The position numbers and the translations under genes were made by a program. Below are positions 12,283 through 19,071 of a stretch of DNA of 64,000 bases, piece after piece. Source of the DNA: Streptomyces sp. NBC_00285 (GTDB taxonomy: Bacteria > Actinomycetota > Actinomycetes > Streptomycetales > Streptomycetaceae); assembly GCF_036174265.1 (NCBI RefSeq), contig NZ_CP108055.1:10168001-10232000 (forward strand), in the 5' to 3' direction. Under the pieces are notes generated by a model. It had not been told where the DNA came from. It saw only the letters and a program-made list of their open reading frames with translations, and ran no database searches. The stretch's first letter is position 1. Each line of letters begins with the position of its first letter.

Positions 12283-12412
12283 GGAGCGGGCGGCTTTCGT
12301 CGAGGGACGCGCGGGGATACCCCTCGTCAAACGAGTGAATGACCTTCAGGTCACTCGGGTGGCGGTACCGCCCGCGTGCACGCCCCTCCTGGCCGGCGCG
12401 GTGTCAGCCTTC

Positions 12413-12555
12413 CGGTAGGGGACCGCCGCGCGCGGCCCAGGTCAACAGGGTTCGGGCGTCCCGGAGGGCGGCCTCGTCCAGAGCGTGGTCGTACCCCGTC
12501 CTCCCCAGCCGTTGCACGAGCCGTTCCTCGCACTCGTCGCGCAGGACGTGCGACT
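12413..12555 (-). pseudogene. hypothetical protein C-terminal fragment
   Basis: The minus strand reads RDECEERLVQRLGRTGYDHA and DARTLLTWAARGGPLPEG then stop. It is cut at its N-terminal side by the TnpB relic beginning about 12545. Codon usage is typical of a real gene, but no family is recognised. Confidence 0.4.
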
Positions 12556-12715
12556 GCGGCACGACCCACGACCGGGACGTGAACGCAGCGAAGAACCTGC
12601 TGGCCGCCGGACGGGCGGTGTCGGCCTGTGGAGCCGGTGCAAGACCTCAACGGAGTTCTCCGGACGGGCAGTCGGCGAAGAAGCAGGAAGCCTCACGGCG
12701 CGAGCCGTAGGAATC
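12545..12715 (+). pseudogene. TnpB (IS200/IS605 OrfB) C-terminal relic
   Basis: The reading CDCGTTHDRDVNAAKNLLAA is the zinc-finger/RuvC III end of TnpB, followed by the usual variable tail (VSACGAGARPQRSSPDGQ). Only the last 55 or so codons remain; the rest of the nuclease is absent. In intact elements this 3' part overlaps the omega (guide) RNA, whose scaffold end is preserved in the hairpin just after. Confidence 0.8.
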
Positions 12716-12734
12716 CCCTCCCTTTAGGGAGGGG
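12715..12734 (+). repeat. IS605-type right-end hairpin / omega RNA scaffold relic
   Basis: CCCCTCCC (12715-12722) and GGGAGGGG (12727-12734) form a perfect 8-bp stem with a TTTA loop immediately after the TnpB tail. This is the expected right-end structure of IS200/IS605 elements and the 3' end of their guide-RNA scaffold. Confidence 0.65.
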
Positions 12735-12837
12735 AGCGTCAAAACGAAGGTGTCAGCCAGGAATGCGGGGTCGCATGGGCCGAACAGGGCCTGGCTGGTG
12801 CCCGATCGGCACTGCGTCCCGGGCCTGGACGGGCCGT

Positions 12838-13131
12838 TCAGCCCGCTGTGGCGGAGGCGCCGCCGGACTCCGGCCTGGCGGCCAGGGCGTTCGACAGCCG
12901 TGCGTGGATCTCGAAGACATCGCTGAGCTGGGCGTGGCGCAGGATCCGCAGGAAACCCGCCCCGCCGGTGACGAGCCGGAGCCGTCCGCCCCGGGCCGCG
13001 GTCCGGTTCTGTGCCCGGCACAGGACGCCCAGCCCGGCGCAGTCGATGAACGACAGGGCACGCAGGTCCAGTACGAGATCGGGGCAGGAGGCGGCGGTCA
13101 GCATGTCCAGGCGCGCGGACAACGGCTGTCC
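12838..13131 (-). pseudogene. STAS-domain anti-anti-sigma factor, C-terminal part
   Basis: This is the larger part of a gene cut by the IS110 element. It carries the STAS core: PDLVLDLRALSFIDCAGLGV, where the phosphorylatable Ser of the usual D-S/C-G motif is Cys-Ala-Gly, followed by RLRLVTGGAGFLRIL. Its first 34 codons lie 1.4 kb away at 14567-14669. Removing the element and one GTCC core joins the two parts in frame to give 130 residues. Intact proteins of this type are substrates of HATPase/SpoIIE regulators such as the one at 2469. Confidence 0.85.
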
Positions 13132-13149
13132 TACCTTTCAAGGCGTGGG

Positions 13150-13330
13150 TCTGATCTGATCGTTCGTAGGATCAGAGGGGCCCGGGGGCTCCGGGTATGG
13201 CTGTAAAGGCTGAGCCGACAGATGGCTTACGGGACTTGGCCGCCCAGAGCCCCGCGACGACTCGACCGCTGATTGGGAGACGCGACTCGATCGCTGCTGT
13301 AGGACAACGTCGGCGAGGTCGTCTGCGGGA
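13150..13330 (+). ncRNA. predicted IS110 bridge RNA
   Basis: The left end can fold into a 5' stem-loop (CTGATC/GATCAG, 13151-13176) and two internal-loop hairpins. The first is closed by GGGGCT (13185-13190) with AGCCCC (13248-13253). The second is closed by GACGAC (13256-13261) with GTCGTC (13318-13323). The first loop holds ATGGCTGT (13197-13204) and CTTACGGGAC (13226-13235), which match the left and right sides of the STAS target around GTCC. The second holds ATTGGGAG (13272-13279) and GTAGGAC (13299-13305), which match the right and left ends of the element. This is the target-loop then donor-loop order of known bridge RNAs. Ends are approximate. Confidence 0.78.
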
Positions 13331-13360
13331 TCAATGTCAGACGAACTGGCGGAGGGGCAT

Positions 13361-14551
13361 ATGTCCGAGATCTGGGCCGGGGTGGACATCGGCAAGACGC
13401 ATCATCACACCGTGGTGATCAATGCAGAGGGCGAGCGGTTGCTGTCCCGCCGGACCCTGAACGACGAGAGTGAGCTGCTGGCGCTGATCGGCGAAGTGCT
13501 GGCGATATCCGACGATGCGCTTTGGGCCGTCGATCTCAACCACGGGGGCGCCGCCCTGCTGATCGGCCTGCTCATCGCCCACGACCAGCCAGTCGCCTAC
13601 CTCACCGGCCTGGCGGTTCACCGAGCCTCGGCCACCTATCGGGGCGAGGGGAAGACCGACGCGAAAGACGCCTTCGTCATCGCCGACCAGGCCCGCGTCC
13701 GCCGGGACCTGGGACTGCTCAGGCCCGGGGAAGAGATCGCTGTCGACCTGCGCACCCTGACCACCCGGCGCCTTGACGTGGTCTTCGACCGCACCCGGCA
13801 GATCAACCGCCTCCGGGCCCAACTGCTGGAGATATTCCCTGCGTTGGAACGGGCGCTGGACTTGACCAACAAGGGTCCTGCGATCCTTCTGACCGGCTAC
13901 CAGACGCCGTCAGCGATCCGCCGCGCAGGCGCGAAGCGGATCGAGACCTGGCTGAAGAACCGCAAGGTCAAAGGTGCCGCCGCACTCGCTCACATCGCCG
14001 TGGAAGCCGCCCGGGCCCAGCACACCACGCTGCCCGGCGAGAAACTGGCCGCCGCGATGGTGGCCCGCCTCGCGAAGGCGGTGCTGGCCCTCGACGAGGA
14101 GGTCGCGGAACTCGACGCCCTGGTCGAGGCCCGGTTTTGCGAACATCCCCACGCCGAGGTGATCCGCAGCCTGCCCGGTATGGGGCCCAGGCTCGGCGCC
14201 GAGTTCATCGCCGCGACGGGTGGCGACATGGATGCCTTCGGCAGTGCCGACCGCCTGGCCGGCTTCGCCGGCCTGGCCCCGCAGCCCCGCGACTCCGGCC
14301 GCGTAAGCGGCAACCTGCGCAGACCCCGCCGCTACCACCGCGGCCTGCTGCGGGCCATGTACTTGTCGGCGATGGCCAGCCTCAAGTCCTGCCCCGCCTC
14401 CAAGACGTACTACCAGCGAAAGCGGAGCGAAGGAAAGGGGCACAAGCAGGCTCTCCTCGCCCTCGCACGTCGACGCATCAACGTTCTGTGGGCGATGATC
14501 CGCGACAGCGAGTGCTATCACTCCTCACTTCCCACCACAGAAGCGGCTTGA
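13361..14551 (+). CDS. IS110-family DEDD transposase (bridge-RNA recombinase)
   Basis: A 396-residue recombinase that appears intact. The RuvC-like DEDD half shows AGVDIGK, AVDLNHGG and GKTDAKDA. The C-terminal Tnp_20 half shows IRSLPGMGPRLGAEFIAATG and the catalytic-Ser region near LAGFAGLAPQPRDSG. GGAGGGG at 13352-13358 supports the ATG at 13361; the frame is open from 13334. Proteins of this family bind a bridge RNA from their own non-coding end and recombine donor and target DNA. The nearby guides still match target and donor, so the insertion may be recent. Confidence 0.92.
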   Translation: MSEIWAGVDIGKTHHHTVVINAEGERLLSRRTLNDESELLALIGEVLAISDDALWAVDLNHGGAALLIGLLIAHDQPVAYLTGLAVHRASATYRGEGKTDAKDAFVIADQARVRRDLGLLRPGEEIAVDLRTLTTRRLDVVFDRTRQINRLRAQLLEIFPALERALDLTNKGPAILLTGYQTPSAIRRAGAKRIETWLKNRKVKGAAALAHIAVEAARAQHTTLPGEKLAAAMVARLAKAVLALDEEVAELDALVEARFCEHPHAEVIRSLPGMGPRLGAEFIAATGGDMDAFGSADRLAGFAGLAPQPRDSGRVSGNLRRPRRYHRGLLRAMYLSAMASLKSCPASKTYYQRKRSEGKGHKQALLALARRRINVLWAMIRDSECYHSSLPTTEAA

Positions 14552-14566
14552 CATAAGCATTGGGAA

Positions 14567-14669
14567 GTCCCGTGAGGAGGTCGATCTCGCCGCGCAGTGC
14601 CATGACGGTCGTCCCGGCGATCACACGTTCCGAGGAGTGCAGGGCGGCGGTGGTGTGGATCTCGGTCAT
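14567..14669 (-). pseudogene. STAS-domain anti-anti-sigma factor, N-terminal part
   Basis: The start codon and first 34 residues (ALHSSERVIAG and VMALRGEIDLLTG) of the interrupted STAS gene. The frame runs into the IS110 element at 14567. The ATG at 14669 is 212 bases from the divergent alcohol dehydrogenase start. Confidence 0.8.
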
Positions 14670-17820: not shown

Positions 17821-19071
17821 GTGCTCAGCGTAGTCACCGACGACGGCTCCACCCAGTCAGGTTCCCTGATCGACGAGATCATGCGGGAGGGCGCCCGCCG
17901 AATGCTTGCCGCCGCGCTGGAAGCGGAAGTCAACCAGTACATAGCCGAGTTGGCGGCCGAGACCGATGAGTACGGACGACGTCTCGTTGTCCGCAATAGC
18001 CACCACCGGCCCCGGACGGTGGTCACCGCGGCCGGCCCGGTCGAGGTTAAGGCCCCGCGGGTGAACGACCGCCGCGTCGATGAGGAGACCGGCGAGCGCA
18101 AGCGGTTCTCCTCGAAGATCCTGCCGCCGTGGTGCCGCAAGTCCCCGAAGATCTCCGAAGTTCTGCCGCTGCTCTACTTGCATGGCTTGTCGTCCGGCGA
18201 CTTCGTCCCGGCGCTGGAGCAGTTCCTCGGCGGCACCGCCGGCCTCTCGGCCGCGACCGTGACACGGCTGACCAGGCAGTGGGGCGAGGACCACGCTGTC
18301 TTCCAGAATCGGGACCTGTCGGATCGCGACTTCGTCTACGTATGGGCTGACGGCGTGCACCCGAAGGTCCGGCTGGGCCAGGCCCACTCGTGTGTCCTGG
18401 TCCTGCTCGGGGTCCGGCTGGACGGCACGAAGGAGCTGATCGCCCTGGCCGAGGGCCTGCGGGAGTCGACCGAGTCGTGGGCCGACCTGCTGCGCGACTG
18501 CCGCCGCAGGGGCATGCGCGACCCTGAGCTGGTCATCGGCGACGGTGCCATGGGCCTGTGGCGGGCGCTCGCCGAAGCGTTCCCGGCAGCCAGGCCGCAA
18601 AGGTGCTGGGTTCACAAAGCTCGCAACGTCGCGAACTGCCTGCCCAAGTCCGCGCAGCCCGGCGCGACGAAAGCGATGCAGGAGATCTACAACGCCGAGG
18701 ACCGCACCCACGCAGAGAAGGCGATCGAGGCGTTCGCGAAGACCTACGGGGCGAAGTTCCCGAAGGCCGTCGCGAAGATCACCGAGGACCGGGGCGAACT
18801 GCTCGCCTTCTACGAATTCCCAGCCGAGCACTGGATTCACTTGCGGACCACCAACCCCATCGAGTCGACCTTCGCCACGGTCAAGCTCCGTACCAAGGTC
18901 ACACGCGGCGCGGGCAGCCCGGCGGCCGCCCTCGCGATGGTGTTCAAGCTGGTCGAGTCGGCTCAGGCGCGATGGCGTGCGATCACCGGAGCTCACCTGG
19001 TGTCCCTGGTCCGCGCCGGTGCACGATTCGAGAACGGCGTCCTGGTCGAGCGCGAGGAGCAGGTCGCATGA
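17821..19071 (+). CDS. IS256-family (mutator-type) transposase
   Basis: A 416-residue transposase, full length for the family. The DDE triad is visible at YVWADGVHPKVRLG (D), LVIGDGAMGLW (D) and RTTNPIESTFATVK (E), with the RCWVHKARNV segment typical of the family. It starts at GTG 17821, about 120 bases inside the left terminal repeat. Its stop overlaps the passenger gene start (ATGA). A decayed relative occupies 21762-22232. It appears functional. Confidence 0.93.
   Translation: MLSVVTDDGSTQSGSLIDEIMREGARRMLAAALEAEVNQYIAELAAETDEYGRRLVVRNSHHRPRTVVTAAGPVEVKAPRVNDRRVDEETGERKRFSSKILPPWCRKSPKISEVLPLLYLHGLSSGDFVPALEQFLGGTAGLSAATVTRLTRQWGEDHAVFQNRDLSDRDFVYVWADGVHPKVRLGQAHSCVLVLLGVRLDGTKELIALAEGLRESTESWADLLRDCRRRGMRDPELVIGDGAMGLWRALAEAFPAARPQRCWVHKARNVANCLPKSAQPGATKAMQEIYNAEDRTHAEKAIEAFAKTYGAKFPKAVAKITEDRGELLAFYEFPAEHWIHLRTTNPIESTFATVKLRTKVTRGAGSPAAALAMVFKLVESAQARWRAITGAHLVSLVRAGARFENGVLVEREEQVA

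Follow-up and report, generated by a model that had tools for sequence, protein, structure and literature searches.

Predicted bridge RNA of an IS110-group element from Streptomyces and its relatives: translation starts and the end of another insertion sequence as probable addresses

The left end of an IS110-group element located in a 64,000-nt stretch of Streptomyces sp. NBC_00285 (contig NZ_CP108055.1; hereafter the window) very probably encodes a bridge RNA that guides the element, its relatives with a CAT in their left guide addressing translation starts and the branch of the window copy addressing the end of another insertion sequence (IS). In the proposed mechanism, the first loop of this RNA would pair with both sides of the target around a GT core and the second with the joined ends of the element, the RNA presumably being made and acting as in IS621. 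The novelty would lie in a start-codon programme whose left register varies, and in the loss of that programme in the branch of the window copy.

The element, its relatives and the predicted RNA

The window element is a member of the IS110 group by the domains of its recombinase (PF01548, E 3e-46; PF02371, the IS116/IS110/IS902 C-terminal domain, E 3e-18), by its long non-coding left end (243 nt before the recombinase gene) and by its short right end (15 nt after it). Assignment to the IS1111 group was rejected, as the fold and the guides precede the gene and merely these 15 nt lie behind it. All six copies in the window genome are 1,437 nt long and identical to one another, with different flanks, which suggests recent activity of the element. 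The window copy interrupts a STAS-domain gene (Table 1) and, at the sister copy L003, the joined flanks form a single 325-codon frame. Just two phage records matched the element, covering 8% of it. As for the surroundings, a remnant at 12339-12735 retains a C-terminal TNB domain (PF07282, 28.1 bits for a cut-off of 26.3) of TnpB/Cas12f1-like type and is followed by a G/C-rich hairpin (12716-12732) resembling the right end of an IS605/IS1341-type element; a Mutator-family (IS256-type) transposase gene (17821-19068, PF00872) lies about 3.3 kb to the right of the IS110 element, and the window itself is close to the end of a 10.26-Mb contig.

Table 1. Features of the window copy and of its predicted bridge RNA (window coordinates)
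Feature	Position	Strand	Remarks
IS110-group element	13130..14566	+	Begins with CCTAC and ends with GGGAA; flanked by GT cores
Interrupted STAS-domain gene, 3' part	12841..13128	-	Frame resumes at 14571-14642, minus strand
DEDD recombinase gene	13373..14551	+	PF01548, PF02371; start codon picked via alignment with relatives
Element left end	13130..13139	-	Reads GAAAGGTAGG, Shine-Dalgarno-like; putative role concerns the CAT-guide relatives
5' stem-loop of predicted bridge RNA	13157..13174	+	Compensatory changes in 3 of 5 pairs
Target-binding loop (predicted)	13185..13253	+	Closed by 13185-13201 with 13239-13253; compensatory changes in 7 of 15 pairs
Donor-binding loop (predicted)	13254..13326	+	Closing stem 13254-13269 with 13309-13326; encloses an inner hairpin at 13282-13294
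Left target guide TAAAGGCTG	13204..13212	+	Variable stretch; replaces 13197-13204
Left target CAACGGCTG	13120..13128	+	Matched by the left target guide, empirical p 0.0033 (short match, GC-rich DNA, window-derived null)
Right target guide, effective part ACGGGAC	13229..13235	+	97-100% match per position, 66 insertions
Right target GTCCCGT	14567..14573	+	Matched by the right target guide
Handshake bases TT	13236..13237	+	Complement the donor AA before the core
Left donor guide ATTGGGA	13272..13278	+	Equals the element right end
Right donor guide GTAGGAC	13299..13305	+	Complements the element left end
GT core, left junction	13128..13129	+	Left and right junctions share the dinucleotide in 84 of 86 insertions
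GT core, right junction	14567..14568	+	Equal cores in 84 of 86 insertions

Relatives were gathered by recombinase similarity (the best 80 of 304 loci; the genera of origin include Streptomyces, Amycolatopsis, Rhodococcus and Actinacidiphila) and from same-genus genomes, of which 107 out of 295 matched, six were searched in depth and not every match became a locus. From 144 loci, 118 left ends were readable, the other 26 loci having no recognisable one, and removal of duplicates by guide and flank left 101 insertions (100 in the start-codon test), that is 77 of clade 1, to which the window element belongs, and 24 of its sister, clade 2, with recombinases 61-66% identical plus L133 and L144. L035 went into the group of other guides; its left flank resembles the left end of the element itself, through assembly or a nested copy. 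Cores, the right donor guide and handshake bases were counted over 86 insertions, 29 rows having been dropped for an unreadable right end. As CCTAC, GTAGG and ATT[GA]GGA were fixed in the search patterns, evidence was drawn from the varying letters only, and insertions of one element have a common history.

The stretch 13157-13326 is predicted to encode the bridge RNA. In an alignment of 48 left ends picked for their differing left guides, the consensus fold comprises a 5' stem-loop and two stem-closed loops, the second of which contains an inner hairpin; pairing is observed in 97.5% of cells and compensatory changes in 14 of the 39 pairs. The fold score was reached by 0 of 500 shuffles on four of five measures and by 1 of 500 on the fifth, and when partners were slid by 1-3 columns pairing fell to 28-47%. 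Conservation among relatives of the two-loop fold, a check put forward by the first-pass annotation of this DNA, is thus borne out over these 48 left ends. Folding of the window sequence alone performed no better than shuffles (z -1.23) and was dropped as uninformative, and no family of Rfam 15 matched the predicted RNA.

At the junctions, the core is the dinucleotide GT, and GT, GC or TC in the relatives, rather than the GTCC initially proposed, a reading explained by a CC that happens to be common to the target of the window copy. The right donor guide was expected to pair with the left junction and does so, its two core letters tracking the core in 84 of 86 insertions in the guide/core combinations AC/GT, GC/GC and GA/TC. 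As regards the left donor guide, the match of ATTGGGA to the right end stands, guide and end switching together between ATTGGGA and ATTAGGA in 48 out of 48 located (of 50), but the eighth base formerly included differs in 30 of 48. In 86 out of 86 insertions the handshake bases are complementary to the donor bases that precede the core (TT/AA, AT/AT and CT/AG), with a search pattern that let only the core-adjacent base vary. L037 and L042 are the sole two of the 86 with unequal cores, and in both the right core is that of the donor; this agrees with top-strand cutting after the core, two cases being few.

Target guides and the sites they address

The right target guide is effectively 7 nt long. 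Over 66 clade-1 insertions, the two core letters and the next five positions match at 97-100%, and the distal three at 27-35%, in other words at background, so that the 3 additional nucleotides matching in the window copy constitute no general signal; of the pairing formerly proposed for CTTACGGGAC (13226-13235) with the right flank, the seven element-proximal positions are hence kept and the three distal ones given up. Over 20 clade-2 insertions, the core and four bases match at 82-100%. For comparison, the two strands of the window contain 7,456 GT sites, 11 of which continue with CCCGT.

On the left side, where the p values concern short matches in GC-rich DNA and the null was taken from the window itself, the two clades behave differently. 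With the left guide placed on the variable stretch (Table 1), the match in clade 2 amounts to 0.863 in a single register, compared with 0.480 +- 0.033 when guides are swapped, and reaches p<0.05 in 22 of 24 insertions and p<0.01 in 19, all 19 in one register. For clade 1, 69 of 77 insertions reach p<0.05 and 44 p<0.01, over five registers. No left match at p<0.05 was found for the remaining 8 clade-1 and 2 clade-2 insertions. Clade-2 guides thus appear to use one register, and the left spacing in clade 1 appears to be variable, a variation that is explained once the sites are read on the minus strand, where a Shine-Dalgarno sequence and a start codon emerge. In most of the clade-1 relatives examined the right guide is indeed Shine-Dalgarno-like (AAAGGAC, AAGGAAC, AAGGAGC or GAAAGGC, for example), and most of the left guides of this clade contain CAT, i.e. 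ATG in reverse orientation. An ATG 3-8 nt from the core and opening a frame of at least 60 codons was found at 48 of the 54 CAT-guide insertions, at 0 of 23 insertions with other clade-1 guides, at 2 of 23 in clade 2, at 159 of 6,480 positions picked at random within these flanks and at 0 of 42 sites that share the right-target motif but have no insertion. The six CAT-guide insertions without such a frame are L032, L033, L050, L055, L104 and L139, an ATG being present at L050 and L104 with shorter frames (40 and 56 codons, respectively). A Pfam scan of all 48 frames returned a family above cut-off for 38 and none for 10, and the targets include response regulators, short-chain dehydrogenases, a CoA-transferase, amidohydrolases and two Rho-like proteins. 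Besides, L015 and L140, two elements with different guides, have each landed ahead of the start codon of a Rho-like gene; the two genes are similar and belong to different genomes.

An artefact of short matches, behind which a fixed register would be used, is an unlikely explanation of the varying left register, even if the matches are short, the p values of single insertions modest, and one register is used by clade 2 and by 11 of the 13 insertions of the window's guide group. The register spread of clade 1 comes partly from differing guide lengths, which makes the counts within one guide the fair ones: within a given guide, for example, L130 scores 10 and L100 scores 8.5 one base apart, TAAAGGCT is more distant from the core by two bases in L004 compared with L012, and more than one spacing, or CAT-to-core distance, occurs for 6 of the 8 guides known from more than one site. 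The variable register being preferred, the left guide would tolerate a gap of unpaired target bases on the core side of its match, and through this tolerance one guide could address many genes.

It is also conceivable that the start-codon sites are chosen by something other than the guide, be it the recombinase, open DNA at expressed genes or the survival of harmless insertions, as many unrelated targets have a translation start in common and insertions at other places may disappear. Such an origin is very unlikely in view of the bases after CAT, which are better fitted by an insertion's own guide (0.755) than by swapped ones (0.477 +- 0.028; 51 of the 54 insertions, those with CAT near the core), of the absence from starts of all 23 clade-1 elements with other guides, and of the guide letters, which themselves spell the translation-start signal.

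With respect to the window copy, the four strings quoted in the first-pass annotation were all found where it had placed them. The exact reading built on them, with ATGGCTGT (13197-13204) as left guide, a GTCC core and a fixed register, has an even slimmer chance of being right. It fits the window copy with seven identical letters and one wobble out of eight, and this left guide reaches 0.78 in the 13 insertions that make up the window's guide group, where GGCTG is present twice, which explains the score. Read in the same register against the left flanks of other groups, it drops to 0.47 (54 CAT-guide insertions) and 0.37 (24 clade-2 insertions). Its letters, notably ATGGC, are near-constant across the family whereas the left flanks vary, three of them sit in the closing stem (G13199-C13201 with G13239-C13241, unchanged in 48, 48 and 46 of 48 left ends, the other two having a wobble), and the GC and TC cores of relatives contradict GTCC. 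The candidate was consequently rejected in favour of 13204-13212. With the guides so corrected, the view that the guide still matches its site is retained, since 7 of 7 positions pair on the right and 8 of 9 on the left, one via a wobble, and so is the view that the element moved with a two-loop bridge RNA, which is well supported by the conserved fold together with the tracking of flanks by guides over six sister copies and 95 other insertions; the left match of sister copy L003 was found merely in a far register (p 0.033). Chance matches with no functional RNA behind them have a negligible probability: the unremarkable single-sequence fold and the lack of an Rfam match speak for them, the compensatory changes and the tracking of flanks by guides in many insertions against them.

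Consequences for the target gene and retargeting in the branch of the window copy

A CAT-guide insertion splits the Shine-Dalgarno sequence from the start codon. Towards the latter, the left end of these relatives presents GAAAGGTAGG or a variant thereof, which may serve as a substitute ribosome-binding site leaving the gene behind it translatable. Over 36 insertions with both flanks available (L013 and L014 being omitted for misread or incomplete flanks), the best anti-Shine-Dalgarno duplex has a mean of -8.20 kcal/mol before insertion and -11.34 kcal/mol after it, a strengthening observed in 33 of the 36, compared with an average of -5.30 for 720 random 20-mers from the flanks. Copies of the window element keep these Shine-Dalgarno-like letters without hitting starts, so that the letters may serve donor recognition alone. 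For the gene targeted by L130, the three nearest homologues (84-86% identity, in other genomes) have a comparable stretch before their ATG and no insertion; the idea that this M20-peptidase target is essential was dropped, as at least three related genomes have a second, more distant match. The signal so addressed, a translation start, is present in nearly every bacterial gene, and the element end could spare the gene concerned.

The branch of the window copy seems to have left this programme. Its guides TAAAGGCTG and ACGGGAC, or near variants, are common to 13 insertions, 11 of which use one register, so that variable spacing is mostly a trait of the relatives. In genome G193, TARRGGCTGTCCCGTA occurs nine times at one mismatch at most, six of these sites forming three inverted pairs 1.3-1.5 kb apart, and a frame with HTH_Tnp_4 and DDE_Tnp_1 domains lies inside one of the pairs, similar frames, as judged by eye, lying behind other TARRGGCTGTCCCGTA sites. 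Inverted pairs around a transposase frame indicate that a guide of the window type fits the terminal repeat of another IS. The window genome contains no TARRGGCTGTCCCGTA site at one mismatch at most, and its six copies occupy imperfect matches. Accordingly the window site is an imperfect match for its predicted guide, the family of which fits the terminal repeat, TAAGGGCTGTCCCGTA, of another IS. In a recombinase tree of 68 rows, obtained by a quick search and with no bootstrap, a single branch (SH-aLRT 89) unites the five rows that have a window-type guide and lies inside a 27-row group (SH-aLRT 99), 21 rows of which have CAT guides. The simplest reading is that the branch of the window copy would have been retargeted once, from translation starts to the end of an IS; none of the 23 clade-1 insertions with non-CAT guides, those of the window's guide group among them, lies at a start codon.

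Further guide types exist in clade 1, namely TGAGCTTGT (L046, L049, L107, L111 and L132) on the one hand and CAGTGCCTGT and CAGTGCGTGT (of the CAGTGC/CAGTGCG type; L118, L136 and L141) on the other hand, with no target assigned to them. Altogether, one recombinase scaffold would carry guides that were retargeted in nature, with start codons, the terminal repeat of an IS and two further targets as their series of addresses.

Comparison with known systems

In the accessible parts of the papers on IS621 (PMC11208160, PMC11208158), the bridge RNA is located in the left end, with the target loop before the donor loop, the left guide pairing with the bottom strand and the right guide with the top strand and the core dinucleotide lying inside the pairings; covariation of guide and target is reported over thousands of elements, and longer right guides for some orthologues. 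The handshake guide is described in the accessible text of PMC11208158, which also gives the CT core as highly conserved in IS621 and related orthologues. As far as these parts go, the window element resembles IS621 in its IS110 group, left-end RNA, loop order, strand pairing, core inside the pairings and handshake, and the features characteristic of that system were found here, that is a two-loop fold with compensatory changes, target guides tracking the sites, and donor guides and handshake tracking the ends. It differs in its GT core (GT, GC and TC in relatives) instead of CT which, CT being conserved in IS621 and the related orthologues covered there, amounts to a difference within the kind, and in having relatives with a start-codon programme. 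In the accessible descriptions, bridge RNAs appear as target readers of fixed register, whereas the natural insertions compiled here point to a variable spacing of the left guide, and such changes in spacing may be a possible off-target route for bridge recombinases used as tools.

The seekRNA of ISEc21 and IS1111-type IS is presented, in the accessible part of PMC11187229, as a short RNA of a non-coding region matching both target strands, the bottom-strand match coming first in the IS110 type, and natural reprogramming is reported there. The RNA predicted here would resemble it on all these points; start-codon targeting and variable spacing, as proposed for the CAT-guide relatives, are mentioned nowhere for seekRNA in that part of the paper.

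IS900 is the closest parallel to consider for the CAT-guide relatives, although it is known here by a motif and a title: the accessible part of PMC8141618 prints the target motif as CATGNNNNNNTCTCCTT, and its reference list includes Doran et al. 1997, "IS900 targets translation initiation signals". The CAT-guide relatives share with it the kind of site and the order of its signals, as far as that source goes, and the window's own copy differs in not being at start codons. On the minus strand, an ATG 6 nt inside the right end opens 316-475 codons in 8 of the 27 CAT-guide elements listed (L038, L040, L041, L047, L048, L050, L104 and L114) and about 10 codons in most of the others, the row of L014 having been misread in this listing. 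In these eight elements, the ATG placed behind the Shine-Dalgarno sequence of the target is reminiscent of the hed frame of IS900; as a general claim, an IS900-like antisense frame was rejected, as it is not conserved in the other CAT-guide elements. No link between IS900 and a bridge RNA was found in the literature searched, a coverage that excluded most subscription papers and the whole of bioRxiv. On balance, and with moderate confidence, we favour the broader view that this IS110 branch has a generic gene address, made of a Shine-Dalgarno sequence and a start codon in an elastic register, and an element end acting as a ribosome-binding site that spares the target gene, that this would be the missing RNA mechanism of IS900, and that the RNA of the window element may have been rewritten to hunt the ends of another transposon. 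If true, the target choice printed for IS900 would be explained by the same kind of guide as that of the CAT-guide relatives.
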